Shown piece by piece: positions 3,336 to 61,027 of a DNA stretch of 64,000 nt. Every line of letters starts with the position of its first letter. Within the stretch, counting starts at the first letter, position 1. The DNA is taken from positions 25,861,997 through 25,925,996 of the forward strand of contig OZ038466.1 in NCBI GenBank assembly GCA_964036295.1, read 5' to 3'. The notes beneath the pieces were generated by a model. That model made no database searches. It was not told the origin of the DNA and saw nothing but the letters and a program-made list of their open reading frames with translations. The translations under genes and the position numbers were made by a program. Source of the DNA: Plumapathes pennacea. Lineage: Eukaryota; Cnidaria; Anthozoa; Antipatharia; Myriopathidae.

Positions 3336-3515
3336 TCACACGTTGATTTCGCCAAGAGGAACGTCCATCATCCTGACATAATTTCCGGTTGAGCTGTCGT
3401 CACTTCCGGTTGTTCTGTCCTCATTTCTGGATGTTCTTGTGTCGAGATCAACAGACGCGCTTCGACTCTCTCGGTCCATTGCGTCTTTTTGATTCTTGGC
3501 GAAATTAATGAACAC
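3336..3515 (-). CDS. ABCA exon 46: VFVNFA-type C-terminal tail
   Basis: This final exon encodes 59 residues beginning VFINFAKNQ, the conserved C-terminal VFVNFA motif required for lipid efflux in ABCA1, with Val-to-Ile at the third position. The tail is Ser/Thr/Arg-rich and ends GEINV. Vertebrate ABCA1 ends in a class I PDZ ligand. Here the -2 residue is Ile, so the end fits a class II (hydrophobic-x-hydrophobic) pattern rather than class I. PDZ binding is inference. Confidence 0.9.
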   Translation of the reverse strand: MFINFAKNQKDAMDRESRSASVDLDTRTSRNEDRTTGSDDSSTGNYVRMMDVPLGEINV

Positions 3516-6500
3516 CTGTAGAAACGAATAAATCAGTGTGAGGGAGAGGAGTTTGCTGTTCCTGAAGCAGAGGAAAAATAGTTCAGTGCAATTTACTGAG
3601 TTCTTAAGGAAACCTTCTCGTTTTCAGACGCAAAGAAGACAAAACTCTTGGACCTAATTCAGGATTAACCTAATCGTGTTCTGAACAACTGGGCCCTGAA
3701 AGATAAGACCGAAATAACGACACACAACTGGAACAGAAGATCTGACACAGATATCAGAGCTACCAGGTCTAGATTTTCTTAGCACTATTCGAATAGTTGT
3801 GTTGTGCTACGATATTTACGCTACGGATCACAGATCCAAATGTCAAGCGAACAAGAAACAGGTGCAGCTCACCTGATCCAGAGTCGTTTGTGAGACCGAA
3901 TAGTCTTCAATGTCGAAGATTTTGCGGTTTGCCTCCAAATGGCCGAACACGCTGGAAAGGAGCAGTCCCCGAGAGGGTAGCTGGTACTCTAGAGAGTTGT
4001 GGTGTTTTTCCTGAAGAGGAAACGGGAATTGATTTAAAGGTCTGATGACCACACACAGAAAGCACTGATACGATGTTCAGGATCGTAGCATTCCTTTGAC
4101 AAACAGACGACTCACCTTAAGCACGGCTCCTGGGAAAAGGCTTTTCATGAAATCGCACACAGCGTCCAAATTAGGAGTTGCTCCCGCCACTCGCATCGTC
4201 ACCGTGTACCCGTCACCATACCTGTCACGTGACAAGAATATGACGTCAGAACACAGAAACAACAACACCAGCACAAGAGAAGGGAGCAACGAAAACAACA
4301 TGGATGATATAGAGCAGACTCACTTGTTCTTGAGGTGTTGTGGACTCCCCAGACACTTGAACTGTCCGTTCACCATGATAGCCACGCGACTACACAGTGC
4401 TTCACACTCCTCCATGCTGTTGGCAAGACGACAGACCAGCCATTAGTCAAAATCTTTGATTTTCGTTCATTGTGTTCCACATACTGTCTTTTTAAAAAGC
4501 CTCTGGAAACCGACCTCGCAACATACAAATAGCTGCTCACTACGATGAAATATTTGTTGCACATGGCAGTGCACAGACATTTTCCCATTAAGATACCACA
4601 GTAGCTCGTACAGTATCAAGGGAATATATGAGAGTATGAGGTCGTGTTACCTGTGCGATGTGAGTATAACTGTCCTGCCTTCTTTGACGATAGAAGTTAT
4701 GATGTCCCACAGAAAACGGCGCGCCTTGGGGTCCATGCCGGTGGTGGGTTCATCCTGAGCAGCGGCAAACACAAAGGATGCGGTCGTATTTAGCACACAC
4801 AAAGTAACACCAGAATTAATCACCAAGTGCTAATTGTTTACGACGCTGATCGTCATGGAAACGAGACAGCAACGGCAACGCCAAACGTTCAATCACAGAA
4901 GAGAAAAGAGTGCAGGAGGAAATACGGATTATTCTTGCATTGTTCACCTTGTCATGAACACAAATAGGACAGGTGTGCGTGTACACGCGTGTCAGACGCG
5001 CGCGAGTGAGTGAACGGGTGCGTGTGGTGGTGAAATGCGCTCTTACCAAGAAAACCACCGACGGATTCCCCACCAGTGCGATAGCTGTTGACAGTTTCCT
5101 CTTGTTTCCTCCACTGTATCCCCCAGCGCGACGGTCCTGGTACTGAATCAGGTTCATCTTACGAATCAGCGCGTCCACGACCTAAGAGTCACGTGACATA
5201 AATTGTGAACACGTGATTGTAATGACGTCACAAAGCGAGAGACAGGATACTTACGTATCTGACGTCGCGTTCTGGAACGCCTCTGAGGCGAGCGTACAGC
5301 TGCAGATGCTCTCTCGCGGTCAACATGTCGTCCAGTCCGTCAAACTGCGGGCAGTAGCCCATCGCTTGGTGTGCATCATGGATTGAGGTCAGGATGCTAC
5401 GAAGTTCACACAGTGAGTGAGTTAAAAACTGAAGACTCGCATGTCTTCCTCATCTTTCCCTTCTCCTCCCTTCACCCTGCACCCCTGACGCAAGCAAGGC
5501 TCGACAACACCAGCCTGTTTCGTGACGTACAAAGTCTGACGTCACTGACACGTGACCCATGACGCGTCACTAACCTGTTTCCCATGACGTAAGCGCCGCC
5601 TGAGGTCACTGGGATGTCTCCCGTTAGCATTTTGAACGTGCTCGTCTTTCCAGCTCCATTGACCCCAAGCAAACCAAAGCACTGCGAAGGAAAGATAAGA
5701 GGACAAAGGAAAGTTTACGCCACAAGTGAAAACAAACAAACGACACGGGAAAGACGCGCTTCTGGAAAGGAAATGGTCGTTCTAGGTTTGACTGGCGCGT
5801 ATAGAAAAAGTATAACAACGTACCTCGCCCCTGGGAACTCCCACGCACAGATGATTGACGGCGACATTTCTGACCTGGCGAGACTTGTAAACCTGTACAC
5901 AGGGGAAGAAGGAATTCATATTAATCCTGAAAATGCCCCGAGTAAAGGAAAAAAAGTCAAGTGAAATCTAAAGGTGTGATCACTCAAATGAAAGCAGTGT
6001 TCACGTTGATGTCGAATGGAGGTCACTCAATTTTTTGCTGTATTTTTTGTTTTGTTTTAGACGGGAAGCAATGTTCGTTTCCTAAACTTATTTCTTGTTC
6101 GAGGTTGCGGAACATCCCTTTACCTTTGTGAGGTTTTCTAGGCGCAAAGCGTCGGTGATTTTGCCGTCTCCTCGACTGACTCGCATTCTCTCTTGTCGTA
6201 CATCTTCGTCTTCATCTGGGTCCGGCTTCTGTGCCACACTGACCCGCCTGACAAACACAAGACACCAAACGTGAAAGCTGACAAACACAATGCGAAGGCC
6301 ATGGGCACGAGCTTATCTGACGTCACAAACATTGCACGTGACCTACAAAGAAAGGTTTGAATACCTTGGACGAATGAAGAACTTGTATTCGATCAAGACC
6401 GTGATGGTGAAGAACACAAAACCTTGGATGAACAGAGCCACAATGTTCCGTCCAGTAATATCCCAGCTGAACGGGTCGCGGAAAAGGTTTTCGCCTTTGT

Positions 6501-9500
6501 ACGGAAAAAGGAAACGAGAAACCGTTGTTGGTTGGTGAAGATAGTATAGTCAGTCAACTCCTAAGACGGACCGACACCCTCTGGACCGGCTCCAACTGTC
6601 CGTTTTAGAGAGTTCAATTAGAGTAAATGATTGAAGGAACGGCAGAGACCGTTCCTACCACGTGTCCGTCTTAGAAGAGTGTCCGTTAAGAGGAAGTTGA
6701 CTGTAAACACACACACACATACACAAACAACCGCAATGACGACAACAAGAACAACATTCAAGTGCTTAAAAAGAAAAGGTAACTTACCAAAGCGGGAAAA
6801 CAGGACCATGAACTGGTTTTTGGCCAAGTCGATCAAACCTCGCCCGAGGCAGTAGTTCGGGAAGATCAAAAATATTTTCTTCAAGAAATCGTTGATAGCA
6901 ATCAAATCCTAAAAAAAGAAAAAAAAAATCAGCTGCACATTAAACTTGGTATAAAGAACAACTGAGAAATGAGAGAGAGAGAGAGGAAACAAAAAAAAAA
7001 AAAAAAAAAAAAAAAGAACAGAACAGAACAGAATAGAACGAAACAAACCAGGAAACAACTTTCTCACTGATACACTTCATGACGAGATGAAGTAAAAGTG
7101 TTTTCTAAAAGTAAGCTGCATCTTAACGTACCTTATCATCTTGGAAAAATTCCAGTATAAACGTTGAAAGAGTTGTGTTGATGCCGATAAAGAGGTTTGC
7201 GCAGATCAACACGATGTACGCCGTGCTCGGCACATCGAATAAATAGGAGACTGGGTACATTAGGGGAGTGATGGCCCAACTACGAGACAAATATAAGCGG
7301 GTTAGATAACCAAGACAAGAGTGAGCTTGACAAGCTTGTTTCGGACTACCGGATACTCACCCATAAAGCAACAGAAGAAGGAAACAAGGAGGGAAGTTCG
7401 CCGCCGAGGTGTACGCATCCTCACCGAAAGCCAGGAATACAAAGCAACACAACACGGCTGGAATGAAGTAATTTCCCTGAAAAAGCAAACAAATAAATAA
7501 ATAAACGAGTCAACAATAAAATATTAGTCGATAGAAAAAGGCGGCGCGAGAAAGTTAGGACTGAAGACGAAACAGAGAAAAAGAATCAGGTATCAAGAAC
7601 AAGGACATAAGCAAGAGCAAATACGAACACGAGACAAGACAAGGACAAGAGCAAGAAGAAAAACCAATAATACGAGCAAGCATAAAAGTGGCAATCTTAC
7701 TCACTCCTTAACTATTTATTAGAGGCTGCCTAGATCCCTATCAGCCCTAGCTTATTCTAGGTAGCCTGCACCACAAATTTGTATAAACAATTTATCTATC
7801 TTTGTTACTGTATGAAATTATTGGTGTAAATAAACTGTGTCACTCACCATATCCCAAACATAGTTCGCCAGCCAATAGATGTAAGGTCGTACACCGCTGA
7901 CCAGATGTAAGTGCTTGGCTTTGTTGTTGCGTTCAATGACAAGAAACACGACGAAACTGGAGGGAACGAAGCACATGGCGAACACCACACAGATGGCTAC
8001 CAGGACATCTATTACTTGCTTGAAACTGAGTAAAAAGAAAGGAACAATCATAAAATCGTTCAGTTTGTATTCCTATCTTGATAAACAGACCCGGCTGAAG
8101 AAACAATCACTAGGTAGACCGTAGGGATATAGAGGGAAACGAGAACAAAAAAAACAAGGCAGAAACAAAGAGAAAGAGAGGGAACGAACAAACGATCAAC
8201 TGCCGTGTACTTACATTGTATCACTGTTCAACTGCTCCCTGTTATAGATCATGGGGTGGTTAACGATGCGAATTCCTAGAAAAGGTGAACATGTATTGAA
8301 TGAGCACATGAAGTGCAACACCAAGCGAGTCATACGCAGTTCGGGATGGCATACTATGCTTAATGCGCTGATGCCACCACAGAATAGTAACAAACTGAAG
8401 ATGTAAGCAGTTAAGAAGGGAAAGAAGACATTTCACACGCTGTTAGACTCACCAAACTCTGAAGCGTTCCAACCTTTCGCTTGAGCCTTACTTCTCAGGA
8501 TAGCGTTGTTCAGAACATTAAGAAAGGTTGGCATTGCGTGATAACCCTTGTTGTTGTACCATACCTGCAGTCACAAAGAGAAAAGTCATCCAAGAATTAT
8601 TGCTCAATCAGAACTGTATCTATTGGCGTACACATATATCACTCTGTCGAGATCAATCTTGTTCTGTAGTGTAGGCAGCGTTTGTGTTCAATATTTATTT
8701 TAAGGAATGATCGTTGGTGTTACAGCTGATACAACTGGATTCACTACCTTAGCATTGTGTTCAGTCAAGAAACGCTTCACTGATTCCGAGTTCGTCTGGG
8801 TGTAATATCTCGGCAAGTTTTTAAAGTTGTCTCCAAAAGAGACGCCGCCATATCTGTAGTACAAAAACAACGAAATAGGGTTAGATTTCCTAGAAATCAA
8901 GGGTAGGTTTCCAGGAAATTAGGCTTAAATTTCCTAGAAATCAGAGTTAGATTTCCAAGAAATCAGGGTTAAATTTCCAAGAAATCAGAGTTAGATTTCC
9001 TAGAATTCAGGGTTAGATTTTCAAGAAGTTAGATTTCCCACAAAAGGCTCACGCTCAAATTCTCGCACCTTTTCTTAATGAACTTCTGGTAGGTCTTTAG
9101 CAAGTAATCATTAACGTCTCTTCCTGTGAGATCTTGCAAGATGTCTTTCGTATGAGATGTCCACTCTGGGGGGCTGGGTCCCCCTGCCCCTGCAGGACAC
9201 ACGGGCGTCCCGGTGCTGCAGTCGCAGTCGGCTGAAGAGTTGACGTACAGCGGTCTCACTTTGTTGAACTTGACGCGCAGGTCATGTGGACAAGATTTGT
9301 CCTCCAGACACTGGACACCTTTAACGTCAATAATAGTAACATCAATGACACACACACGCAGAATGAGGAAACGGAGGATTGCGGGACGCGACGAGAGAGG
9401 AAGGGAGCTGACAGGACTTTAGACCAGACAAGACGCAGCTTTGGCAGAAATACAGACAGAAGTAAAAGCAATATAACAACGCAGCAAAGACACGGGTAGA

Positions 9501-12500
9501 GACGCAATAAGAGCATGGACACTGGCACAGGGACAAAAACAGGGACAGACACAAGCACAGAGACATACACAGGTCAAAGCACAAAAACAGGTACAGATAA
9601 CGATAAAAGCATGGTCACAGAAATATACACTGGCAAAGATTCAGAGACAGAATCTAGCACATGTACAAGCACATGCATTAATAAAAAAGAACACAAATGT
9701 GCAGGCACAGGTATAGATAGACGAGGCCGTTAGATGAGCTTTGCTCTCCATACCTACACCCGGGTACTTCATCAACGAGTGGGCCATGCTTTTGGCGTCA
9801 GCGCTCCGCGGATCATCCACGCTGAAGAACACGTGACTTTCGTACGGCTCGTTATCCACAAACATCTTGGTGCTGAGTTCAATGGCTGGCATCTCTGAAA
9901 ACGGCCTGATCTGGGATACGATCATAGCAAGACAAACGAAGATGGCAGGTAATAGGATTTGCGACAAGAATGCTTTGCGGTTTCTACGCGAGTGATGGAA
10001 ACGCTTCACTAACAACGCCCAGAACTGCTGCTTGAAGAGAAGAAGTCCGCCAAGCCTTCTGTCCACATCGAAATCTGGTGCACTTCTTCTTGACCCGTCT
10101 ACCTGGACATCTGAGAAGAAACACGAAAAAACGTCGTAACCGCAGCCCAAGTCCCAAATGTATCACCAAGTATCCTGGTGGTCACTCTTAGTACATCACA
10201 ACATGGTACTAGCAGTGTACGCGTTTTTATTTATCTTCTTCGGGCAGAGAAACATGGTGATAAAAGGGCTAATGCCTGAGATAATCCACATGCTCTAAAA
10301 TTCAGACATTTTACAACATTTAATCTTTTCCATTTTCTTTCACAAGCTGAGTAATAGCTGACGGCGTTAAAGTGGTCACGCGCTATTACGTTACACTGTA
10401 GCGTGACGTGAATACTAACCATCCGTCGCGTCCTCGTCACTTTCGTCCAGTAGCTCTGCAGTGTCTGTGAAACTGCTGGCTATTCTCGTGCGACGAAAGT
10501 GCATTCGGCCTCGGAAACTGGGCCGCCTTTTGGGTACTTCAGCTGCCATTAGATCTGGATTAAAAATACAAAGATAAGTCGTGATTCGTCCTTCACCAAA
10601 CTCTGGATGATCGTGTTTCTGGAACAAAACGTTTGACGTGGTGCAGGAACTAGTAGGCTTACCCTCTTCTTCCGCATTGGAATCAGCCGCGACTTTCAAG
10701 AAAACCTGCACAGGAAAAGAAACCCAACAGTCAAGTGAATCTCTTGTTTGAGTTCAAGTTGGTCAGACCATCAATTCTCCTAACACTAACCATAAACTCT
10801 ATTCAGAGCAGGTTAGGAGAGTTAGGTGATTCCTTGCTTGAGCTCAGGCTGGCCAGACTATCAATTCTCCTAAAATTTAGTTATGTACTTTATTAAGAGC
10901 AGCTTGGGAGAATTATCCCTTGACAAACTCACCTCCTCCAGGGTGGTGTCAGACACGCCGTATGTTCCAATGTGCAGCTTGCCCAGATTTTTATCCAACT
11001 CTTCGAACAAGTCCTGGAACCGACCTTCCCGCGCAGCCTCAGTGGGCAGCACATACGTCATATCCGACCCAATATGCTCCACGAGCTGTGCGCTCGGGAT
11101 GTAAGACTTGATGAATGACGTCACAGTCGCCTCGTTACAGTACAGCTCAGTGTCTTGGAAGAGAGGGTCTGGGTTTGGCTCCAAAGGTAGGGATTCAATG
11201 CTGCCTCGCTCCGATGCGTCGACAGAATCGAGACCTACCCCTAAAAACGTAGAAAAAATAAAAAATAAAATAAAAAATAAAAAAAGGAGGTAGTTTAAGT
11301 GTATGTAATAGAGTTAAAAATATTCATAGATGTTGCCTGCAAGGGGCGACAATTGCAAATGGCGACTGCCGGGTTCTCTACTGAATAAATCCCCTCCCTT
11401 CAGGGAAGCCAGCCAGAGAAACAGCGAGTTTGTCAAGTTACGAGACCACTTTTGTATAGTTAGCTTCCGGTTTACAGATAACGGGCAAACAAAACCAATT
11501 TCTTTCGGTATTATCCACTTCTCTCTTTGATCACTTCACAACAGAGCAAGTATCTGGCATATCTGCGTGTCTTGTAAAAATATCGACTTTGTTTGTCCGT
11601 CGGATGTACCGGATGTGACGTTTGTTTGCTGCGCCTCACCTTCATCATAAGAGCTGGCCTGGGAGCCACCGGAAGTGTCCCTGTCCCTGACCTTGAGGGT
11701 AACGTCTCGCAGGCTCTTGGCTGTGTTGGGCCTTTCTCCCGGTGCTTTTTTCGTGAGTGTTACGTAGTAGCCTTTGCCGTAGTGTGACTTGAGGAAGAGC
11801 GAGGTTCCACAGCACTGCAGCTTGCCTTGAGAGATAATGGCGATCCTGTCACCCAAGACGTCTGCCTCGTCCATGTGATGAGTTGACAGCAGGACAGTGC
11901 GACCTGCAAAACAAACATCACACTGTTAAGAAAATCATTGCTATCACGATCACCATCGTCGCCATCATCATCATCACCACTATCACTATCCTCATATATA
12001 AATCTTGGAACAAAATTGCAGGAGACAAATACCAACCTAACAACTAGTTTACACAAACTCAAACTGTTGCGGCAACGTGTGCACAAACCTGGCTTATACT
12101 GCAGAAGAAGGTCCCAGATTCCTCTCCTGGCGTATGGGTCCACTCCGGCGGTGGGCTCGTCCAAGATCACCACTTTCGAGCCCGCCACAAAGGCCATAGC
12201 AACGGAGAGCTTTCGTTTCATGCCCCCAGACAGGTTGCAGGCAAGTTCGTTCCGTTTGTCGACCAGTCCGACGTCCTTCAGGAAACTAAAACAGGAAAAC
12301 GACACAGTTGAAGGCACACGAGGACGGCAAAAGACATGAAAAGTTCCGCCTTTAAATTGGGCCTAACTCAAGAATTAGGAAATAGTCCTACCTTTCAATT
12401 TCCGCTGGGATATTCTCCTTTGCCATGCCCTTCAAAGACGCATAGTAATGCAGATGTTCTTCTACCGACAGCCCGTCGAACAGCACGTTGTACTGCGGGC

Positions 12501-15500
12501 ATATTCCGAGACTGCGTCGGATTACGTCGATATCCGTTCGGATGTCGTGGCCGTTAATGACGGCAGTGCCAGCAGTTGGAGGAAACAGGCCGCTTAAAAC
12601 CGACATGGTGGTCGTTTTACCTGCGCCATTGTGCCCCAGGAAAGATGTGATCTGGTTTTCGTACAGATTCAAACTCAGTCCATCCACGGCCAATTTGTTT
12701 CCTTGGCTGTAAACCTGCAGAAAAGCAAGTCAGAGCTTGGTCCAACACTAAACCACATTCTTATTCTACTCCGGACATGTCTAACAGACTATAAGACCTG
12801 CGAAGACTTTAAAGCCCACGGTTCACATTACACGGTCCAAAAAAAGCGTACTCTCTATGAAAAACAGTTGAAATGCTTTGAAATTACGTCGACTGACGTC
12901 ACTCGACACAGGATACCGCCTGTCGTACCTTGACTAGGTTTTGGATGGAAACTCCAAGAGGAAGATGTACGGGTTCTTTCTCTATCGCAAGGCCCTCGGT
13001 TGCGTCTCTCTCGAAGAAAACTTCTTCCAAGCCTGGAGACTGTACAAAAAGAGAAAATAAGCCCGCAAGAATCAAAATGCGATGACATCCTGCTAATCAT
13101 TTTTCTACTGCTGCCTGTCATTTATATTTGTAAATAATTCACTTTCTTTGAATTTTGCTTTTCCACGTTCCCTTGATTTTTTTGCTTTCAGCTTGGATCC
13201 CATCTACCCGGCATTTTTATCATTTCTTTCTTGCCTTTACCAGTGCTCCCGTCCGTGCTTCATACCCTCACTTATCCACCATCGCTTCAACATTCCCTTG
13301 GGGATCAACTTTAATTTTCTCTTTCCATTCTTTTACCAGAGATATATCATAAAGTAAGGAGAATTTGGCGTTTAATTAATACAAACTTTCAATATACAAA
13401 TGGGTAAAACTAGCGACAGTACATTGCTTTATGAATAAAGAGCACGCACCCCGTCCCCGCGAGAGCTTCTCGTTTGTAGGGACACGTGACCGTTTCTGGT
13501 GTGAGAGTACTGCGCGTGTGACTGCGCGCCACTCGACGAGTCGTCGTTAAACCAATAAGACTTCATGAAGGGGAAATACCACGGACGAGGGATACCATAC
13601 TGACCTAGAACAACAATACAGGGTTAGATCAAAGACTCAGTAAAAGTGTATAGATCAACTGATCAACCAAATCAAACTCTACGGGCCAATCCGTAATCAC
13701 AGTGGATCATGACAGAAAATACACGAAACACTTCACTAAGCCAGTTTCGTGACATTTCATAACTTGCTTAGATAAAAGCTGATTGCATCCTCACTGCATC
13801 ACATGTTCACTTAGCTTGCTATGGTTGATTTGACTAAGTCCATCGGGATTATAAACACGTGGTCGCTAACGAGAACTTTCATTACTGCGTGACAAGTAGT
13901 CACTGAGAGGTTTCACTCGTAACGATATGACTAAGCATACTTCACTGACTATTGTCACTGAAGACAGGTTTCACGTGACAAGTTAAACATTTTAGAGATT
14001 TTGACTTACCAGGCATGACCGCCTCTATGTACCACGTGAGTAAACCATATATGACAGCGTCAATCATCATCATTCCCAGAGCAAAACCCAAACTGAAGCC
14101 GTCACCAGACATCGGACTTGAGTAAAAGTTTGACCACTGTGCTCCCACTCCCTGCTCCTCTAACCTCGACAAATAGCTGCACGCGATGCCAAAGGCTGTT
14201 GTTGATGACAAAGACTGGAATGTGGAAGAAACCACGGTCAGCAAAACCAATTACGACTTTCGTTGCTGCTCATTATCAGTGTAATGAGTCTAGGAGAATT
14301 TGTACGTGCATAAACAAGATACATTAGCTCGTCTGTGTGTGATGTATGAAGCGGACAAACTACTCCACTTGGCCCTAGTAAGATACTGTAAACTCTACCT
14401 GTATTAAGCGGACACTTCAAAATCCCTTCGGGGTGTCCGCCTAATACAGCTTTGACTGTATGTGGATACGTATATGGGAATATCTGCGTACGTGAATGTT
14501 CTCTTGTATGTGTAGATGTGTACGTGTATGTGTGTTGGTTGTAAAAGTATGCGTGTCTGTGCTGAGGGCGCCTGTACGTGTGCGGGTATATGTATGTGTA
14601 TGTTTATACACTTTGTAAGTGTAAATGAGTATAAATTTGTACCTAAAACCTCCGTACTTTGAATGTGTGCACAACAGTACACAGAAAAAAACTATCTCCA
14701 GCTCGATTCAACTCACCGCCACAGCTTTCTCGCTGGTGTTCATGTACATCTCAAACCAGCGAACCAGCACGTAGGGCAGATACGTGACGAAGAAAATGAT
14801 TCCACCACATGCGGCCGCTATGTTTGCACGCGAGAAAAACACGCTGATAAGGAAACACATCATGACAGTTGCAATCATGAAGACGATCAGAAACATGACG
14901 ATGATGACCGGATTACTGTATTGTAGGAGCTGACCCCACTTGAGGAGAACTGTCAGCATGAGCACGCTGATAGTCATAAGAACGCAACTGTTGATGAACC
15001 AGGCCAGCCAGTGCACCGACGTACTCATGCCCATCACCTGATGATCAAGACAATCAAGAATAAAGGAGAAAAAATATGAGAGCAGGAAGAGGCGCGCGAA
15101 CTTGCTCCCGTGTATCCATGATTACACAGGCATAGCTATATGCGCACATACACGCACACGCATGACACAACACGCACTCACACGCACACTAACGATGTTT
15201 GTACCTAAAACTTTGATGACACATTGATGTACACAAACGCAACCACAGTTGTACATCAACACGCACACCAACGCAAACACACGAACATCAACTCGCACTC
15301 ACCGAGGTACACGTGAACACTGTCAACAGAGAAACTGAACGCACTTATCCACGAACATGAACTCAGGCACAAATGCACACACAACGATAAGTACATGCAC
15401 GCACAGAGCACTAATATTGCCCGCATACAGTTCTCGTATGAGGTACTCATCTCTGTTCTTACGCTGACAAAACCTCAAACTACTTAGTGCAAAGTCTCCT

Positions 15501-18500
15501 GTGGTATATCACAATGCATCAAGGAAAACCAGCCGCCCGACGACGAGCTGCCGAACGACTAGCAACGTGTTTCTCACCTTCATGACCTCCTTGAGTCTTT
15601 TCTCTTTCTCGTAAACGATTCCTTTCACGATCATTGCGACGCTGAACACCCAGGCAAGAGTCATGAACATAGGCAACATGGCTGACAAATACCACACGAA
15701 CCTGACAAGTAAGGAACAAAGATGCAGCTTTAAAAACAGGCGTCTCGCAGCAAGGGATGATCGAACTAAAACGCAGGCACGCGTACAAGTACAAGCATAG
15801 GAATGTATATGAGATTCAAAGCCGAGTGAGAGAATAAAGGAGCTGTGTGATTAGTACTACCGGTCGTTTATATAACACGGGTAGGGAAGCTGCTGCATGT
15901 ACAGTCCAGGTTCCAGAACGGTCTCGTTTAGCATGATGTTCATGAGCGACCGATCAATCAAGTCTTGCAGGTACATGAAGCCAAAGTTCAGGTATTGGTT
16001 ATGGCCGAATCCGTCCCGTGGTCCCGGTCTCCAATAGCTGCAACACGAACACAGCGAATCAACTTGTCAAGAGAAAAGCCCGTTTCAAACGTCGCGCCAC
16101 ATGCGCTAGAACCAAGCTGAATGCGCATCGGTTCCTTTGAAGTTTCGCCTCACGTGCCAAGCACGTGCTAGACAACTAAATATGGTAAAGTCAAGCACGC
16201 GCTTCTAGCGTGCGTGCGTGCGACCAGGGCAAAATATCAAAATTAATCTCACATATTCACGTACGTCTTGTCCTTTGCAATTAGTTTTATTGTTTTGCCG
16301 AAGTTGTCGTTGTCGTTCTCGACTACATGCTTAAACTCTCGCTTCATTCTCACCGATAACGAATCTGGTCCGTTCTCGGCGTGTAATCGATGTCTTGTCG
16401 GATTTTGTACTTGACAAACTTTGGAAGGCCAGTGGAAGAATCTTTAACATTCTCAAATACAAGACCTGTTGAAAAACAAATCATATTACTAGAAAATAAC
16501 GAGGGCTAAACTTGGGACCTAACTCTGATCATTTTGGAGTGCAGAAGAGAATGGTGCCTGTTAACTTCCTCAGACACAGCTGATGCAACGACTAATTCTC
16601 ATCACCTCGTCCACATAATTCCCTTGAAGATGGTTGGGAGAATTATGAGCTCAGGAGTTGAAGGTTCAGCAAACTGCTTTCACCAGTCGTACTGCTTAAT
16701 CCTTTCACTTCCAACATTGATCAACTTCCATTTTCCCTTTTCAGTCTTTTACCAGAAATGTATCGTACAGTAAGGAGAATTTGGTTTTTGATGACATGTT
16801 CAGATGAAAGATGACTGAAATATCAACTCTCACCACACCACTCATACACTTTCTTCTTGAGAGGTTGAGAGAATTTGTGTCATGATCTTGGCAGTGAAAC
16901 GGCTTAAATACTCACTTGCGATGACCGGTAAAGCGGATTCATTGACAGCGCGGTTCTCCAGTGACTTTTCATCCGGGTACCCCTCAAAATACTCATGACT
17001 GCTGCACTTGTATAGCTTCACAAACTGCCGCATCGTGGAGTCGAGGCTGTCAAGAAGCGCGCGCAAATTGGGCAAGCGATTGGTGCTGTTCGTGGTGCTG
17101 TTCATGGCGTTGTTCATGGCGTTGTTCATGACGCTGTGTCTGCTCGAGTTATACAAGTCGAGTAGAGCGTCCAAGCGGTCACTGTTCGACACGTTCCGGA
17201 GGTTTGGAGGATCGTTCAGGATGTGCCGAAGTATCTGTAGGTTCTAAACGGAACATAAAGTACAGGATCAATGGCAAACGTAAGAGTATAAAATACCGGA
17301 CGAAGACGAACAGCTAGACTATTAAAATGATCAGGATTAACAAATGGACAAACAGACAAAACCAGCCACAAATACAGAGATATAGATAAGCAAACAAATG
17401 CGCAGCCAGAAAGTAGAAGTAGTCAACACACATGAAAGGTGACTAAACACCCACACCATCATTTACACACCTCCAGGTTCTTCTGGTTAGACGAATTCTC
17501 TGTGAAATTCAACACCTGCTCGCGAATAACATCTGAATTGTTGAGCCACCACTCAGCAAAGCCTTCAATCTGTCGTATGTCTGAGAACTGCTTCTTCACC
17601 TATAACGGAATAATCCACATAGTTCATCAATAATCAATATCATGAGATGGAATTAATGAGATCTCCATGATCTTAATGCACGGAAACGTGAAAACCACGC
17701 CTAAGATCAATATTGCTCTGCGAGAGGTGATCAACTTCCATGTTGTCTCAAATAGACCATTTTCATAAGGCTCCGGCAAACTACGGCAAGATTTAGTTTG
17801 GATACCTTAAGTGGAAATGCTGTAGAAAACGACATTAATTTAGCCATCCTAACCGAGTGCATCGACCTGGAAGATGAATTCGTACTTAGGTCCAGGAGTG
17901 AAAACTGAGCTATCCTGGAGAGTGTAAACCACGAAAAATAAGCGTGTTATTTCTCACCTCAGATAGGATCCTCCTGGTCACATTGTTGTCCGGCGTGAAC
18001 AGAATCTTCCCCTTGAGGAACAGAGATGAGAGCTGGACAAATCCTCTGTCTGACCTTCCGCGTCCGGGATTTCCCGACACACCCCCAACACCGCGAACGA
18101 GCTCGTTCATCAAACAATTGCACTCAGCGTTTTCTGTAGACAGATAAAAATAAATAAGTACATGGTCGCTTTTAGACTCGAGGCGACTAAATCACCTGAC
18201 TGTTTTAAGTGCAGCTCACGTAAAACAAGACGCGTAACTAAATGCAATGACGTCCAAATATATTTTTCAGTTACAGAAACTGTAACTTGTTTCAACTGAA
18301 TGTTGCCTTTGAAACTGAAGTTCGCCAATCTAACTTGAATACAATAAAACCTAGATTAAGTTGAAACACAACCCGTCATGAAAGAAAACTGAATTGAAAA
18401 GCTTGGATGCACACCCAACCTTTGAACAACTGGTGTATTGTTAGCAATACTGCTTCTGCTGTTGCTGCTACTTAACTTCTGAAGATGACTTGAGTCACCA

Positions 18501-19798
18501 ACAACAGTCTTCCTGGAGACTACTCTAACCCGAACGATCACAACCAACATACTAATAATACCAGTATTGCTTACCGACTTTGAAGAAGCAAAACCGAGTT
18601 TTTTTGATCGAGTCATCGAAGCAACAGTCCATCTGTCGACACTGAGATTCCGAGATGCCAGGCCAACCACAGTCTATTCTGCTGTGTGGTTCAATCACTG
18701 AACAAGTATCTAAAACGATAAGAACAAATAGTGCCTGGTTATCTACAGCTAACCTTCCACTCTACAGCTCATGGCAATTCCTGCCTGACAACTTGCCTAC
18801 AATTCATACAAACTCCTACCTGTATCATAACTCTTGTTGGACAATAACTCTCGATATCTGCCATAATGGTCTCTAACGACTTCAAGGCAGGAAGGCTCTC
18901 GCACTTCTTTCTTTTCCTTGTTCTCTGTATTCTGTTCCTCCTCATCATCCATTTTTTCATCTCTGTTCATGACTTCATTTATTGCGCCCGCCCCGAGTTC
19001 TTGTAGGCTCACTTGATTGCTGCTGTCCCTGGCAACTGACATTTGATTGCAGAACGCTTTGTGCAGGCCATTTTTCTTTTGAAGTTGGCCTCGCAGTGCG
19101 ATGTAGTCACTGATGACTCGGTCAAGGTCTTGAAGTGCTTCAAGCTGCGGAAACAACACCAAGTCAAAACATCTAAGCAGTCCTTCACAAGTTCAGCTAT
19201 TTGGGATGTGTGACAGATTACAGTATCTCTTTTAGAGTGATTTCCGATGACTGTGTAGAGTGGAAACGACTGTACAATAAATCTAACGTTTGAAACTTCA
19301 GCTGAGGTCCCAATAGGAGGCAACTCTTTTTGTTGGCGAAGCCAGCATTTAGAGTACGTTGTGTACAGTTTAAACATCAAGGCTTCAAAGAACACTGAAC
19401 ACTCAGGTACAGTCGTATGACAACTGAGATTGTTTAAATGTTTTTAAAAAGTCGTACCTACAATGAAATGAACTACAGAAGTGAACGAAAACTTATTTCC
19501 GCCTTCCACGAACTTTAGAAGCAAGGCCTTGCTTCTAAAGTTCATGAAATGTGGAATAAACTGTAAAACATGGTGCCAAGTTCACTTACATCTAAAGAGA
19601 GGTTTCTCAAGTCTTCATTCAAGGCTGTCTGTAGTTGCCTGTACGCTGTGGCGTTCACCTGGGTGGGAAGGCCTGTAACATTCGGCCATGTCAGCTGTGT
19701 TCGGAGTTCGCGGCTCAGTTTAACCAGGTCCGGATTACTGAGAGCACACAAGGCTTCATCTACCTGATCCTGTCAAGTGAAATGCAAAATCCAAAAAA

Positions 19799-19849
<51 letters not shown>

Positions 19850-21823
19850 AAGAGAGACATGGTTAGCATCGGATCGCAGATTGTGCTGCCCTTACAGAAT
19901 TACTGTTGACATACCAAGCTCTGGCCATTTGGTGATTTCAAAATATGCTGTAGACCAATAGGTGATCCATCATCACAAAACAGCTTTTTTGTCTGTGCAC
20001 CATCAAGGTTCAAACCATTCTGTGGATTCGAACAACAGATCAATGACATATATAAATTTTACATTGGTAAGTTTTACAATACAGTGGTTATTCCTCTGTC
20101 TGCTGTTCTGTCAGTCAGTTGTTTGGTTGGTCAGTCAGTCAGTCAGTCAGCCAGTCAGTTAGCTACAGTACAGCTACTGTAGTCTGTAAATTACTTTACA
20201 TTGCCTGTTGGAAAAAAACTGTCCAAAGAATTACCTTGCGCAGAGTGTCAGAATTTCTCAACACCCACATGATCCAAATGAGCTGCTCAGTGTTGGCTGA
20301 TGCCAGAAGTTTAGGCAAATCCAGTCCTTGAGAAGTGGATCCTAACTCAATTGGTTGAAACACAGCCATGACCTGAAAACACACATAAGAATATTACACA
20401 CAATTCAAGCTCAAAACTTTTCCATGCAGGACGATGGTCTGAATCCCACTCAGTCAACAGGGATAACAACGGAGGAGTTGGAGGCAGATTGGTAAGTTTA
20501 GAACTTTTGCAGTAGAGTTGACTCCAAATTACACATGTTTGAAACTAATTTATGTCATATGAGATGTTCTCAAAAGAGAATTGTTTGAACTAGCTCTATC
20601 ACTTTAAGCTGGAAATTTTGTAGACATGAGGCATGCAGTATGTAGGGGAAATATGCAATAATGCAGGAGATAAGTCTTGCATCCAGGAGATTGATATGCC
20701 TATGCAGGAAACTGGAAAATCAGGTGCTCGTGTGGAAGGCTCACACATTAATATTGTTATGCCTCAACAGTCTGCACTTTTCAAGTGTACTGTCAGTCGA
20801 AGTAGGAATTCCTGTCTGATATTCTGTAACTCATAGCACTGCTCTCAAACTCTTCATGTTTCCTTTCTAGCGAGTAATAAATGCCTACCTTTTGTACGTC
20901 AACCCTGGAATTCATTAGCTCATTCACAAGCTTTGGGTCGAGTTTGGTTGTATTCAACAGGAACTGTTGAAACTCAACAGGATCTTTCAGAAGTCTATCC
21001 AGGGGTACATCTGTTAATTCAAATGAAGGGGTCAGATTAAAAAAGACCAAAGTGACAATTTACTTTGCTATCTTCAAAATCCCGATTTTTACCTAGTGTG
21101 TGATTATTCCTGTTGTTTTGATCAGAAGCACACATCAGTTAGATCTCTTTTAATCTGACTCACTGGGTAATGTATCCAATGACCATATTTCATTACGCAT
21201 GCATGTATATACCTGAGAGGTTCATGCCAGCCCAGCTGGAGCCATTATTACCAAGCAAGGTGTTCAGTGCCTGCCTGTCTTGGACCCACTTTTGGTAATC
21301 TGTGTTGAGTCGCAGCAAATGGTTCCTGAAACTTCCATTCAGAAGCAGAGGTCCTGCATCCTGAAACAGTCTCAGTAAACTGTGGATCAAAAGAAATTGA
21401 ATGAACACTTACTACTACGTTCACCAATATGAACACAGCTGTAATATTGGGCAGTTTAGTGACAGCAATGGTGGAAAACTTATCGAGATTTGACTTACAT
21501 ACAGTACATGTATGAATGTGGCTTTTTTTCTATAAAACCATCTATTCACACATACATGTACATACCCTGAACTGCTGATATTAGGCAGACCATTGGCAAC
21601 AAGGTATGATTGCTTGGGGTCAAGCTCATTATCTTTGAAGTCGCAAATGAATGACTGCATGAACACAAGTAGTCCTGCAGATGGTAAAGCTCGAGGCCTG
21701 TACAAAACTGGAAAACAGAAAAAGGATACATGTATGTCAAGTGAAATAATTTAAAGTTGTCACTGGACTAATCATACTTCTCTTTCACAGCTCTTGAGAA
21801 AACTTCACAAACATGTAAATAAA

Positions 21824-21872
<49 letters not shown>

Positions 21873-21882
21873 TCGTTTCAAA

Positions 21883-21913
<31 letters not shown>

Positions 21914-24027
21914 TATACAGTCGTTTCAAAAAAGGTTGACCCTAAAAAAATAGCAAAATAGGCAAATACCATGACCGAAAGGGATCTGTGAAATAGACAA
22001 AATAATATGAATCTGATAATATTCACGTTCGAATAAGTCATGTCATGTGCGTAGAGTGTGAACTTTGCTGGAGAATAACATATTTGCCTGAAATTCTCGG
22101 CTATTCACAAATCCCAATATCCCTTTTGGTCGTGGTATTTGCCTATTTCGCTCTTTCTTTCTTTCGAGGGTCAACCTTTTATGAAATGACTGTATAGAGA
22201 AAAAAACATTTAGAGGAAGAAAAAAATGCATGTTATGTAACTATGAAAACCTCTGAATATAAAACATACCATCACTGCGGTGCTCTGGTTTCCTTCTTGT
22301 TCTCACTCCCACAAGGATCAGGAAGAGAAGGAGTGGCCAAAACAGCTCAATCAAATTCCTCAACTGAAAAGCAAAGGAGTCTTTGAGACATTATTACCAA
22401 ATTATGTAGCACACAAAAATAAAATGATTATCAAAAACACAGAAATACTCAAATAATGGGGAGAGTATTATAACAAAATGTCTCAAACATAAACAAATAG
22501 CCTCAAACATAATATTTGGGGTACCACTGATCATTATATAATAATTACATTAAAATATTAATCAATAATTTAAGTAAATAACTTTGATCTGAAGAGCTTG
22601 TTCCAGGCAAATGCAGTAGTATTACACTGTAATTACAGTAAACATAATTTATTACATCACCCATGTACATATGAATTTTTCTTATCTTCTCATCTTTCTG
22701 GCATTGCATCTGTGAACAACTTTTCAGAAGATTATCCCATTAGAATAACAACTACACTGGCAATCCTTAACCCTTTTGGTCTTAATGGGACAACATTAGT
22801 GCAGTAATGCTGGACAATAATATTACTGTACTCTCTAAATTTTACTGCACCGGCAGTTATAGCGAGATTTTTCAATTCTAATAGCAGCTCTGGTCACTGA
22901 GAACTACTAGCACAGTAGGGGTTAATATGTCCTGATATTCTTCGGGATCATTTTTTCTCGGAATGTCAGATGATCGGCCGAACAAACTATTCTTCCCATT
23001 GATGAATGACACAGCCGGATTTCTTAATGTGCTCATGACGACAGCACGGCCCATCAACAAACAAATCACTCCATGAGTTCGCGCAACCAATCATATGCTG
23101 GCCGTGCAAAAATATCATCATGGCTCACTGCACAACATCTCAAGAATTAAGCATTCAAATACTTCGCAAACCTATAATTTCTTCTATCACCTTCGGAAAT
23201 TGTTGGCTATCAAGTGGTAAGCCGCGATTCACGCGGAAAAAGAACGAAGGAAGTTCAAAGATATTGAGGGAGAGAGTAGATATCACACGATGAGTGCACC
23301 CTCGAAAAACGTCCATTAGGATATTGGGTTCTCGAATCGGATAATTTCTGATTTATATCAAAGAATGTTTGTAAAACCTCGGTTTTGCTGTGTAACGGTC
23401 TTCTGCGTCGGAAAATCCTAGACAACGAAATGCAGACCGGAAAGGGAAATTTTCACGAGAGCAGAGTGAATAAACAAAATGGCGATCTAAACCATCTGCC
23501 GACACAAAGCTTTCACATGAATCGCGAACTTCCTGTCGATGAAGATCCCTTGCGCTGCAGTAATTAGACGGAAAAAAGTACAATAACGTCAAGATGCATC
23601 GAACAAATCTGATAAAAACCTGAATAGAATAGCATACAGAGCGGCTGTGTTAAACAGCCGGCGCGTTCAAGCCCAAGACGCGCATGGAACTGACATTTAC
23701 ACAAAATTATCGTTTCAGTTGGTGAACGCAAATCGACGGTGTACCACGTTCTTTCAGTTTTAAGAGTTAAATGTACGAGTTGAAAAGGAATGGAATATAT
23801 CTGCGCTGACTGGTACCAGTCTATTGAAGGTTCATATTATTAACGTCTATTTTTTTCACGCAACATGCCAGACACGAATCGAATTTATAGCAATCTTCCA
23901 GTGTTAAGACTCGGGGCCTAGTGAAAAAGTTAAACAAAAACGTTCACAGTCAAACACTTACGTGCTGCCGCTTGCGAAGCGTGAAGTTTTTCCACAGCAC
24001 AAGCTTCAGCTGTCCCCAGAACCGCAT
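3336..24027 (-). CDS. Full-length ABC transporter, ABCA1/ABCA4/ABCA7 clade, with a trefoil domain in extracellular loop 1
   Basis: I reconstruct 46 coding exons totalling 7359 nt (2452 aa plus TGA at 3336-3338), keeping frame at every junction with canonical GT-AG sites. Human ABCA1 has 2261 aa and ABCA4 2273. The start ATG (24027) opens [20 protein letters not shown], matching the ABCA1-type N-terminus. Order: TM1 (about 23-43), large extracellular domain 1 (44-800), TM2-6 (800-1015), NBD1 (Walker [10 protein letters not shown] 1131-1139, LSGG 1230-1233, Walker B Asp1254), TM7 (about 1575-1595), extracellular domain 2, TM8-12, NBD2 (GVNGAGKT 2124-2131, YSGG 2223-2226, Asp2247) and the C-terminal VFINFA motif (2394-2399). 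Both ATPase sites look intact. Family members flip phospholipid, sterol or retinoid lipids across membranes; the substrate here is unknown. The odd feature is a trefoil module at residues 447-491. It cannot be assigned to ABCA1, ABCA4 or ABCA7 individually, so no symbol is given. Confidence 0.93.
3873..6247 (-). CDS. ABCA exons 37-45: linker and nucleotide-binding domain 2
   Basis: Exons 6124-6247, 5824-5892, 5575-5681, 5255-5396, 5047-5181, 4651-4754, 4324-4416, 4116-4221 and 3873-4010. They encode [13 protein letters not shown], then [20 protein letters not shown] (Walker A), [13 protein letters not shown] (Q-loop), [17 protein letters not shown] (signature), [20 protein letters not shown] (Walker B/D-loop), [14 protein letters not shown] (H-loop), then [13 protein letters not shown] and the [13 protein letters not shown]-type C-terminal strand. 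No key residue is missing, so both NBDs are predicted active. Confidence 0.93.
6365..8025 (-). CDS. ABCA exons 32-36: second transmembrane bundle (TM8-12)
   Basis: Exons 7848-8025, 7361-7476, 7132-7279, 6788-6908 and 6365-6494. Clear family blocks are [94 protein letters not shown] and [17 protein letters not shown]. Residues about 1823-2054. The acceptor of exon 32 lies at 8026-8027, giving the in-frame [13 protein letters not shown] foldback element occupies 6551-6703 between exons 35 and 36. Confidence 0.92.
6551..6703. mobile_element. Foldback (MITE-like) element with CGGAC-rich arms
   Basis: The left end begins CAGTCAACTCCTAAGACGGA. The reverse complement of the right end begins CAGTCAACTTCCTCTTAACG and includes further GACGGACAC steps. 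The right end is followed by TA (6704-6705), typical of Tc1/mariner-type insertion; the left TA is degraded (TAGT). The centre is a short hairpin (GGAACGG, loop, CCGTTCC) near 6635-6654. It has no coding capacity and lies in ABCA intron 35. Confidence 0.5.
6991..7040. repeat. Poly-A run followed by GAACA pentamers
   Basis: About 25 consecutive A followed by GAACAGAACAGAACAG-type repeats, in ABCA intron 34. GA dinucleotides precede it. It could be a retroposon tail, but no body is recognisable. Confidence 0.7.
8215..10110 (-). CDS. ABCA exons 27-31: TM7 and extracellular domain 2
   Basis: Exons 9754-10110, 9069-9318, 8748-8853, 8453-8564 and 8215-8275. Exon 27 contains the basic stretch before TM7 ([18 protein letters not shown]) and the TM7 helix. 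Exon 28 has the family cysteine and proline block [13 protein letters not shown], then [19 protein letters not shown]. Exon 29 starts with RYGGVSFGD. Exon 30 carries [20 protein letters not shown]. Loop 2 appears typical in size, unlike loop 1. The short intron after exon 28 holds an AGAAATC-type minisatellite, and the intron after exon 27 a degenerate ACAGG-type tandem array. Confidence 0.9.
8878..9036. repeat. Intronic minisatellite, about 24-bp unit
   Basis: Around six diverged copies of a unit like GGTTAGATTTCCTAGAAATC, alternating CCTAG and CCAAG variants. It fills most of the intron between ABCA exons 28 and 29, stopping about 30 bp short of exon 28. Confidence 0.8.
9516..9700. repeat. 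Degenerate ACAGG/CACAG tandem array
   Basis: A purine-rich stretch with many ACAGGGACA, ACACAG and ACAGGTACAG steps at about 6- and 12-bp spacing, in the intron between ABCA exons 27 and 28. Divergence is high, so this is an old array. Confidence 0.55.
10420..11240 (-). CDS. ABCA exons 24-26: post-NBD1 regulatory domain and linker
   Basis: Exons 10933-11240, 10663-10705 and 10420-10554. The first encodes the regulatory domain typical of the clade ([14 protein letters not shown], then [14 protein letters not shown]). The 43-nt micro-exon gives [10 protein letters not shown], and exon 26 is basic then acidic (RRPSFRGR... DESDEDATD), a likely cytoplasmic linker before TM7. The intron at 10706-10932 contains an old tandem duplication of about 90 bp. 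Confidence 0.88.
10735..10920. repeat. Diverged tandem duplication of about 90 bp
   Basis: Copy 1 (about 10735-10825) and copy 2 (about 10826-10920) share the order: Cys/Leu-like TTTGAG or CTTGAG step, CAGACCATCAATTCTCCTAA (copy 2 CAGACTATCAATTCTCCTAA), then TT(C/A)A(G)AGCAG and a final TGGGAGAA or TAGGAGAG. It lies wholly within ABCA intron 24. Confidence 0.6.
11640..13604 (-). CDS. ABCA exons 19-23: linker and nucleotide-binding domain 1
   Basis: Exons 13450-13604, 12929-13039, 12392-12714, 12089-12285 and 11640-11903. Exon 19 begins with the conserved [12 protein letters not shown] stretch. Exon 20 uses the acceptor at 13040-13041 (not the nearer CAG), which keeps phase and yields [15 protein letters not shown]1 has Walker [11 protein letters not shown]-loop region [10 protein letters not shown], signature [10 protein letters not shown], Walker [14 protein letters not shown], and H-loop [16 protein letters not shown]. 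All catalytic positions are present, so this half should bind and hydrolyse ATP. Exon 23 continues to the conserved KGYYVTL strand. Confidence 0.93.
13303..13368. repeat. 66-bp intronic interspersed repeat, copy 1
   Basis: The segment starts GATCAACTTTAATTTTC, contains CTTTTACCAGAGATATATC and ends AGTAAGGAGAATTTGG. A second copy of equal length lies at 16719-16784 in another ABCA intron, about 80% identical by eye. It is probably a fragment of a dispersed family. Confidence 0.6.
14010..15701 (-). CDS. ABCA exons 16-18: first transmembrane bundle (TM2-6)
   Basis: Exons 15578-15701, 14717-15037 and 14010-14214. They encode the conserved intracellular helix block [16 protein letters not shown], hydrophobic segments around [20 protein letters not shown], the ABCA hallmark [17 protein letters not shown], and the [16 protein letters not shown] loop before TM6. 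Residues about 800-1015. Exon 17 (321 nt) is purely phase 0 at both ends. The intron at 14215-14716 contains a small foldback element and GT-rich sequence; the intron at 15038-15577 contains CA-rich sequence. Confidence 0.9.
14386..14458. mobile_element. Small TA-flanked foldback element
   Basis: An imperfect inverted repeat with CTGTATTAAGCGGACAC on the left and GTGTCCGCCTAATACAG on the right, closed by a short loop around TCCCTTCGGG. TA dinucleotides flank both ends (14384-14385 and 14459-14460). The CGGACAC arms resemble those of the element at 6551-6703. It is in ABCA intron 17, next to GT-rich repeats. Confidence 0.5.
15861..24027 (-). CDS. ABCA exons 1-15: N-terminus, TM1 and extracellular domain 1
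   Basis: Exons (transcript order): 23962-24027, 22270-22363, 21566-21707, 21213-21379, 20889-21010, 20235-20372, 19915-20019, 19590-19769, 18820-19144, 18575-18709, 17958-18133, 17471-17599, 16916-17243, 16354-16465, 15861-16037. Exon 2 carries TM1 ([17 protein letters not shown]). Family landmarks are [35 protein letters not shown] and [10 protein letters not shown]. Exon 4 is best started at 21379: the CAG at 21380-21382 gives the correct phase, while nearer AGs break frame. Exon 9 includes a Glu/Lys-rich acidic stretch and exon 13 a Met-Asn-Asn-Ala repeat with several NxS/T sites; both look like lineage-specific loop insertions. Intron 1 (22364-23961, 1.6 kb) is the longest of this gene. 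Confidence 0.88.
16719..16784. repeat. 66-bp intronic interspersed repeat, copy 2
   Basis: Partner of 13303-13368: starts GATCAACTTCCATTTTC, contains CTTTTACCAGAAATGTATC and ends AGTAAGGAGAATTTGG. The flanks differ from copy 1, arguing for two independent insertions rather than a local duplication. Confidence 0.6.
18575..18709 (-). CDS. ABCA exon 10: trefoil (P-type) domain module
   Basis: This 135-nt exon encodes residues 447-491. It has six cysteines (449, 460, 470, 475, 476, 487) with gaps of 10, 9, 4, 0 and 10 residues. From the second cysteine on, this is the spacing of secreted trefoil factors. It also has the trefoil core R457-x-D-C-G-x-P-G-I-S and the C-C-F-D-D step. Differences from the usual pattern: Trp462 where Phe/Tyr is common, and Arg-Phe-Cys instead of Pro-Trp-Cys at the last cysteine. 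Both flanking introns are phase 1, so the exon is a symmetrical 1-1 module of the kind moved by exon shuffling. It sits just before the ABCA-conserved region starting ECNCLMNEL. The position places it outside the cell or in the lumen, where the three disulfides could form. Trefoil domains bind carbohydrate or stabilise mucus-associated proteins; that role here is inference. Confidence 0.88.
19510..19543. repeat. Perfect 34-bp palindrome
   Basis: GAACTTTAGAAGCAAGG is followed directly by its exact reverse complement, with no spacer. Flanking bases 19493-19509 and 19544-19560 extend it as an imperfect stem. It lies in ABCA intron 8. Confidence 0.9.
19794..19850. repeat. (TAAA)n microsatellite
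   Basis: About 14 uninterrupted AAAT/TAAA tetramers in ABCA intron 7. Confidence 0.95.
21825..21917. repeat. Two (AT)n blocks split by a copied transposon end
   Basis: AT dinucleotides run from 21825 to about 21868. Then ACAGTCGTTTCAAAAAAA (about 21869-21890) interrupts, and AT dinucleotides resume to 21917. The interrupting sequence is the same as the left end of the adjacent foldback element at 21918-22192, so the microsatellite and transposon end were duplicated together. Confidence 0.85.
21918..22192. mobile_element. MITE-like foldback element with TA target duplication (Tc1/mariner type)
   Basis: A 275-bp element flanked by TA (21916-21917 and 22193-22194). The left end reads CAGTCGTTTCAAAAAAGGTT and the reverse complement of the right end CAGTCATTTCATAAAAGGTT. 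Similarity continues inward through GACCCT, ATAGGCAAATACCA and AAAGGGAT, so each arm spans roughly 70-75 bp. There is no ORF of transposase type, so it is non-autonomous. It lies in ABCA intron 2. Confidence 0.8.
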
Positions 24028-48300: not shown

Positions 48301-48394
48301 TCCCCTTTCCTCTCTCCTCTTCTCTTCTTTTTAGAGAGGAAACGACAGCACAGGAATGCGAGACCACTCTCCTATTTTCCCATCTACTCTTTCT

Positions 48395-48443
<49 letters not shown>

Positions 48444-48865
48444 TCCTCTCCCCCTGCTCTCTGCTCCTCTATTTTCCTCTTTGTTCCTCTATCTTCCTCT
48501 CTCCTTTACTGTTCTATTCCCTCGCCTCCTCTTCTCTAGAAAATGCGAAATTCAAACACCATGCACAAGTAGTGTATTGCACCAAATTTATTCTTGAAAC
48601 ATACCTTTGTTTGTTTAGAATTTAAATCTGTCCAAAATGTAGTTTCAACTCGACACAATAAAAGAACGCTAAATGAAATGAAAAGCAACCATGAGTTATA
48701 TATGTTATATTGATAGTGCCAAGACAATTTCTCGGAACAACTGCAGGGAACTTGAAGCCTTACTTTGTTTCAGGTGTGAACATGGTTGATATGCAGAAGA
48801 AATCGTCCGCGTCCGCGAACCCAGGATTCCACGGAAGTCAAAAAGATTTGGCTCAGAGTTCATGA
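39374..48865 (+). CDS. PTCHD3-like Patched/RND-family membrane protein, copy A
   Basis: 23 exons: 39374-39471, 40359-40605, 41132-41205, 41368-41487, 41692-41839, 42050-42147, 42608-42728, 42864-42987, 43303-43415, 43516-43578, 44016-44058, 44243-44309, 44609-44750, 44919-45056, 45513-45552, 45812-45967, 46248-46375, 46571-46723, 46886-47011, 47277-47421, 47610-47731, 47933-48203, 48774-48865. Total 2829 nt, 942 aa, in frame. TM1 is at about 41-63 (SPWITILVCLILSGACMVGM), then loop 1. The sterol-sensing-type bundle starts near 278, with GIGVDD at 344-349. A Cys4 cluster lies at 447-450. Loop 2 precedes the second bundle from about 692, with Asp764 in GLAVDYSSH. Both RND proton-relay aspartates are present, suggesting an active ion-driven transporter; the substrate is unknown (sterol or lipid by family). 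The first exon is set by homology to copy B. Confidence 0.87.
47202..47222. repeat. Poly-C run in PTCHD-A intron 19
   Basis: About 20 consecutive C about 50 bp upstream of exon 20. A similar run of about 18 C sits at 41864-41881, roughly 25 bp after exon 5. Confidence 0.9.
48395..48439. repeat. (AT)n microsatellite in a pyrimidine-rich intron
   Basis: About 22 AT dinucleotides inside a 300-bp CT-rich stretch (48241-48540) of PTCHD-A intron 22. Confidence 0.95.
48657..48662 (+). other. Candidate intronic polyadenylation signal, PTCHD-A
   Basis: AATAAA 112 bp upstream of the last exon. Copy B has AATAAA at 60693-60698 in the same intron. Reading through the exon 22 donor would give a short alternative C-terminus (EGWCHLFVLLL, stop at 48233-48235). 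Use of the signal is untested. Confidence 0.35.
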
Positions 48866-49091
48866 GCCCAGTTCAAAGGTCATCGTGCGATGTTTTAACC
48901 AATAAGTCCCTTTACCACTCATGCAGAGTCACTAAAAAAGTTTTACACACCGTATAAATGGTTGTGAAGTCAGTCTCTCTGCTTCGTCCCGTTCATTTCT
49001 TTTTGTTTTGTTTTGTTTTGTTTTTCTGCAAGCTGCATTATAACCCAACTCTGCCCGTCATCTGTGATCGTCAAGTATCTCGGCTTCGACG

Positions 49092-50348: not shown

Positions 50349-50381
<33 letters not shown>

Positions 50382-52291: not shown

Positions 52292-61027
<8,736 letters not shown>

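Follow-up and report, generated by a model that had tools for sequence, protein, structure and literature searches.

Trefoil (P-type) domains are cross-linked by disulfides in the pattern C1-C5, C2-C4, C3-C6. For the trefoil factors (TFFs), a lectin site has been described in which an Asp or Asn before the second cysteine contacts GlcNAc and a Trp before the sixth cysteine contacts Gal (PMC7221086). As reported in that account, only the side chains of Asp20 and Trp47 of TFF3 contact the disaccharide, Asn replaces this Asp20 in TFF1 and TFF2, and Trp-to-Ala mutants of TFF1 and TFF3 are inactive (PMC7221086). Larger proteins that the same source names as hosts of the module are lysosomal alpha-glucosidase, sucrase-isomaltase, and ZP1/ZP4 (PMC7221086). 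Unlike these enzymes and zona proteins, the host described here is a membrane transporter.

ABCA1, ABCA4, and ABCA7 share the order TM1-ECD1-TMD1-NBD1-TM7-ECD2-TMD2-NBD2-R1, with both Walker/signature sets. In the first extracellular domain (ECD1) of ABCA4, residues W339, Y340, Y345, and F348 of the S-loop are described as touching the substrate, and the same source gives the S-loop as unresolved in the ABCA1 structure (PMC8219669); the loop is therefore probably flexible. The basis of the interaction between ABCA1 and apolipoprotein "remains unknown" in the wording of one report (PMC13161189). Our searches of the open-access literature showed no trefoil-bearing ABCA transporter among the papers listed, and a mite genome paper, in the portion bearing on these families, treats trefoil and ABCA1 as separate genes (PMC6806590). 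The combination of the two may already be present, unnoticed, in automatic annotation.

Here, we analyze a window of 64,000 nucleotides, the whole stretch of DNA under study, that corresponds to C5:25861997-25925996 in a genome of 290 Mb on 24 contigs (C1-C24). A gene model was built by chaining anchor peptides under splice-site scores and phase rules, with exon ends chosen by score; in the final model, longer anchors were forced for exons 8, 9, 13, 17, 21, and 28, and exon 37 was added to a first, unforced 44-exon chain of short anchors. The resulting ABCA1/4/7-type gene occupies 3336..24027 on the minus strand (24027→3336) and comprises 7,383 nt encoding 2,460 amino acids in 45 coding exons, one fewer than the 46 counted in an earlier note on this DNA. 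It forms a single open frame with zero phase mismatches and its sole stop at the end, and its introns fall into 21 of phase 0, 12 of phase 1, and 11 of phase 2. Pfam recognizes two ABC2_membrane_3 and two ABC_tran domains in the model protein, together with R1_ABCA1 (PF23321; 114.7 bits, 75/75 positions, aa 2322-2396) and Trefoil; two AAA models also match, one of them, AAA_15, below its cut-off. Against solved chains, aa 1-931 match ABCA1 at 3.5e-99, ABCA4 at 1.7e-94, ABCA7 at 3.4e-86, and ABCA3 at 1.1e-35, and by this comparison the predicted transporter is nearer to ABCA1/4/7 than to ABCA3.

The exons follow the architecture given above for human ABCA1, ABCA4, and ABCA7. Gene model and solved-chain matches place the start codon and an ABCA1-like N terminus in exon 1 (23962..24027, minus strand, as for all exons of this gene), TM1 and the start of ECD1 in exon 2 (22270..22363), and a TMD1 segment, which served as a query for ABCA paralogs, in exon 17 (14717..15037). 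Supported by the model and Pfam, NBD1 is encoded by exon 21 (12392..12714), which carries its Walker motif and provided our NBD1 query, and by exon 22 (12089..12285) with the signature and the Walker B motif VVILDEP; the Walker motif of NBD2 lies in exon 38 (5575..5681). With VVFLDEP as the Walker B motif of the second half, the catalytic motifs appear intact in both halves. The model sequence further contains an ECD2 Cys cluster in exon 27 (9069..9318) and, in exon 45 (3336..3515), the C terminus with a VFINFAK motif and the stop codon, adjoined by the R1_ABCA1 domain. We take the Cys cluster and VFINFAK to be known ABCA1 motifs, and presumably ABCA4 and ABCA7 likewise share this cluster and a VFxNFA-like C terminus. 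Taken together, the model is predicted to encode a full-length ABCA1/4/7-type transporter with one trefoil, contained in a single exon, in its first extracellular domain. The solved human ABCA1, ABCA4, and ABCA7 chains, in contrast, have no trefoil in this segment.

Elsewhere in the window, repeated exon-like frames extend from 45000 to 63600, which resemble Patched-type genes by motifs such as GLAVDYSSHIGHTF and GLVYLPVLMASIGPSPY. Similar terminal exons occur at 47834-48232 (+), 60148-60504 (+), and 62408-62776 (-); a Pfam search of single Patched-like terminal exons gave no match. A long TA/AT dinucleotide run at 55611-55803 reads IYIYIY on both strands, and shorter runs lie near 48300 and at 21800-21940.

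The trefoil is encoded by exon 10 (18575..18709, aa 447-491), where Pfam, PDB matches, splice sites, and the gene model coincide. In the best-supported model, this 135-nt exon runs 18709→18575 on the minus strand and is of phase 1 at both ends, in agreement with the earlier note, which had named exactly these coordinates and phase-1 introns on both sides; the plus-strand translation of 18575-18709 contains two stops. Read on the minus strand, the exon begins with ATACTTG, its borders being cgttttag/ATACTTGT at the acceptor and AAAGTCG/gtaagc at the donor. The exon 10 peptide matches the Pfam Trefoil profile (PF00088) over positions 1-43 of 43 with 53.3 bits (cut-off 21, E 2.4e-14), a match far beyond chance. 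When scored within the whole 2,460-aa protein, a check that the earlier note had proposed, the profile still reaches 45.1 bits. Its top PDB matches are porcine spasmolytic polypeptide (TFF2; 1.7e-16), TFF1 (1.1e-10), and TFF3 (1.2e-6). All six cysteines line up with those of TFF1 and of the first TFF2 domain, and the trefoil spacing, including the CC pair, also shows when the domain is aligned to TFF1, TFF2, and 19 of the genome's 30 other trefoil matches. The claim of a six-cysteine trefoil exon thus holds, as does its placement, in frame, within the part of an ABCA1/4/7-type gene that encodes extracellular loop 1, for which gene model, Pfam domains, and solved-chain matches agree. The domain resembles TFF1-3 in its six-Cys spacing, an RxDCGxPGIS-like core, and the Asp of the sugar site; it differs from them in residing inside a membrane transporter instead of being secreted alone and in a Phe at the position of the sugar-site Trp.

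To either side of the trefoil, the protein reads as ECD1. Exon 9 (18820..19144; splice sites and model) encodes an acidic low-complexity stretch and then ...SNKSYDT up to a phase-1 donor, and exon 11 (17958..18133), entered through a phase-1 acceptor, continues ECD1 and aligns with ABCA1 TTPYCNDLMKNL...GKILYTPDTPATRQ. If exon 10 is left out, SYDTENAE-C pairs with FYDNSTTPYC of ABCA1 and SYDRRTTSFC of ABCA4 in two MAFFT modes. The insertion point accordingly lies between D348 and C355 of ABCA1 (YDN/STTPYC355) and between D363 and C370 of ABCA4 (chain numbering). ABCA4 338-370 falls within the ECD1 segment aligned to the insertion region, which puts the trefoil downstream of the S-loop equivalent, in ABCA4 terms about 16 residues past the S-loop. 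The S-loop aromatics themselves are not confidently alignable in this protein because of the acidic low-complexity stretch that exon 9 carries just before the trefoil.

At exon 10, the upstream border is less secure than the downstream one. In the 44-exon chain, exon 9 ended at 19013 and exon 10 started at 18761. The junction at 18709 is favored over this alternative by splice and codon scores: the acceptor scores 2.81 at 18709 versus 2.12 at 18761, the donor 4.7 at 18820 versus 4.3 at 19013, and the added exon 9 tail is coding-like in codon use (0.22) while the dropped 18710-18761 piece is not (-0.24). Under both choices the trefoil is in frame, the difference being the upstream intron phase alone. 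Exons 9, 10, and 11 join in a single frame that is open with or without exon 10, and the introns beside exon 10 measure 110 and 441 nt. Ranked from the weakest of 44 by a simple splice score, the exon 10 acceptor is 17th and its donor 10th. With exon 10 alone excluded from training, it ranks last among the 45 exons in mean codon log-odds (-0.02; others 0.08 to 0.59), and it stays last, followed by 0.05, when each exon is left out of training in turn; 3.1% of stop-free 45-codon intronic pieces (n=386) reach the exon 10 score. A Cys-rich composition may account for part of this low value.

To place the module among the trefoils of this genome, we searched all contigs with the PF00088 profile and obtained at least 31 matches, one of which is exon 10. 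With an E limit of 0.1, the exon 10 peptide returned 22 matches, the exon itself at 100% and the next-best at 47% identity. Neither a recent copy nor a donor gene emerged among these matches, and a recent copy of a known trefoil gene is rejected as the source by this distance, which also suggests that the insertion took place long ago. Among the 30 other matches, 24 were examined for splice sites, and 19 of these have phase-1 splice-like sites near both ends, within 23 nt on the upstream and 19 nt on the downstream side; this was a consensus scan that returned several candidate sites per exon, some of other phases, and it serves as supporting evidence only. The remaining five comprise two trefoils in one frame (C3), one with a distant donor (C4), and two with a side that has no close phase-1 site. 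A tree built from 23 short domains (the exon 10 trefoil, three TFF domains, and 19 of the other 30 genomic matches) is weak; it sets exon 10 beside a C4 cluster near 9.67 Mb with support of only 0.75. At one 10-kb locus of this cluster (L049), Pfam found Trefoil alone, in two stretches, within three minus-strand frames. As a separate observation, C1:41986000-42015000 holds a cluster of trefoil exons with 10 of the 31 genomic matches, all of them closely flanked at both ends by phase-1 splice-like sites, in which two types alternate (CDDVPSDGR.. and CQTAPESR..). No relative was confirmed in the viral and prokaryotic sequence collections that we searched.

The ABCA relatives offer a second point of comparison. 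At E <= 1e-12, a threshold that may miss more divergent ABCA genes, the NBD1 query detected four ABCA loci: the window gene (C5) and loci on C11 (77% identity), C9 (64%), and C4 (59%). A trefoil match lies nearby solely at the window gene; contigs C9 and C11 gave no match in the PF00088 search, and the matches on C4 lie more than 3 Mb from the ABCA locus there. When the trefoil peptide was run by tblastn against the C11, C4, and C9 loci, it likewise found weak pieces alone (best E 0.03). The C11 paralog, whose 77% identity spans an 84-residue NBD1 stretch, has a large ECD1. Its homologous ECD1 stretch, from ILCG to KILYSPNG, is one exon (L017:8083-8424) with neither intron nor trefoil; this exon and its splice sites were read by eye, MAFFT having placed the C11 ECD1 badly. 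For the C11 ECD1 region, 5.9 kb were searched against Pfam in one stop-masked frame and gave nothing. The C4 gene has a short ECD1, with its TM1 and pre-TM2 matches 400-450 bases apart.

These observations support the exon-shuffling origin that the earlier note had put forward, since trefoil exons elsewhere in the genome are often phase 1-1-like (19 of 24) and the nearest paralog, on C11, has no trefoil. Phase symmetry alone is weak evidence, because exons 23 and 26 of the ABCA gene are also 1-1. Exon shuffling best explains how the trefoil came to lie in the ABCA gene: a module, probably from the lineage's own repertoire, would have moved into ECD1. On the sequences compared here, a full-length ABCA1/4/7-type architecture with an ECD1 trefoil of this origin is likely.

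Contig C24 of the same assembly is a 17,711-base mitochondrial contig in which ARAGORN (bacterial code) found only two tRNAs, one for Met and the other with anticodon tca. Its cox1 is split around an endonuclease-like frame, and nad1 and nad3 lie between the parts of a split nad5, the gene names other than cox1 having been assigned by eye. Together these mitochondrial features suggest a hexacorallian and fit sea anemones, which supports the cnidarian source implied in the earlier note.

Several other readings of exon 10 were weighed against a shuffled, functional trefoil. Phmmer paired part of it with SRIVCGHPE of ABCA1, as would be expected if the Cys-rich segment were native ABCA sequence (ABCA1 SRIVCGHPEGG) that resembles a trefoil by chance. 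This has next to no probability, given a full-length profile match with six cysteines at E 2.4e-14, flanks that align without the exon to ABCA1 YDN..C355, and a C11 paralog that has the ILCG segment but no trefoil; profile, flank alignment, and paralog together rule out a native origin of the Cys motif. An artefact, whether from mis-assembly or from another gene's trefoil exon within an ABCA intron, is very improbable as well, as the contig measures 26.6 Mb, the exon is on the same strand with an exact phase fit and introns of 110 and 441 nt, and the genome holds a single full-identity match to its peptide. A more serious question is whether exon 10 is used. Being of equal phase at both ends, it could be a cassette exon, in which case most transcripts would skip the trefoil and the working transporter would be an ordinary one; skipping yields the unbroken ...SYDT-ENAEC... 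that aligns to ABCA1 FYDNSTTPYC, and the codon-usage score is the weakest of the 45 exons. We regard this as unlikely, as the splice sites of exon 10 are not unusually weak and its six cysteines are intact although the closest trefoil found elsewhere in the genome is only 47% identical, which suggests selection at the protein level.

For a trefoil that is retained in the protein, the main question is whether it binds sugar. Within its RID-CGW segment, exon 10 keeps the Asp before the second cysteine in alignment with the TFFs, and the same alignment gives Phe in place of the Trp before the sixth. By the residue numbering of TFF3 and the alignment to TFF1, we assume this Asp to be the equivalent of TFF3 Asp20. 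Judged by these residues, sugar binding by the exon 10 trefoil, a role that the earlier note had proposed, is plausible. The Phe at a sugar-contacting position also suits a purely structural role, in which the trefoil, as a disulfide-rich spacer, would lengthen or stiffen a flexible loop of ECD1 close to the substrate entry and bind no glycan. The acidic low-complexity stretch in the adjoining exon 9 points the same way, as does the probable flexibility of the S-loop, by which the region may tolerate insertions (PMC8219669 for the ABCA1 structure). On the other hand, the sugar-site Asp is kept and Phe is still aromatic, and we consider a mere spacer possible but the less probable role. We tentatively favor, at somewhat short of an even chance, a module with low affinity for glycans or glycoproteins that may keep the transporter or a lipid acceptor near the side of lipid exit or entry. 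The trefoil would fold independently as a three-disulfide knob on ECD1, in the loop that corresponds to D348-C355 of ABCA1, and the ATPase and membrane machinery would remain ordinary. That such a lectin-type module beside the substrate loop might go further and steer lipid export or uptake to glycan-bearing partners, giving a lineage-specific choice of acceptor, is a more doubtful proposal.

If that proposal is true, the glycan-bearing partners could include glycoproteins of the mucus, the surface of a symbiont, or an acceptor similar to an apolipoprotein. For ABCA1 and its relatives, the handover of lipid to the acceptor and the partner contacts of the ECDs are described as unresolved, in the terms of the report cited above (PMC13161189). 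In this respect, a recognized binding module at a defined ECD1 site, together with a trefoil-free paralog on C11, offers a ready natural comparison. The gene would also be a clean case, from an animal, of a polytopic transporter that gained a domain by exon shuffling.
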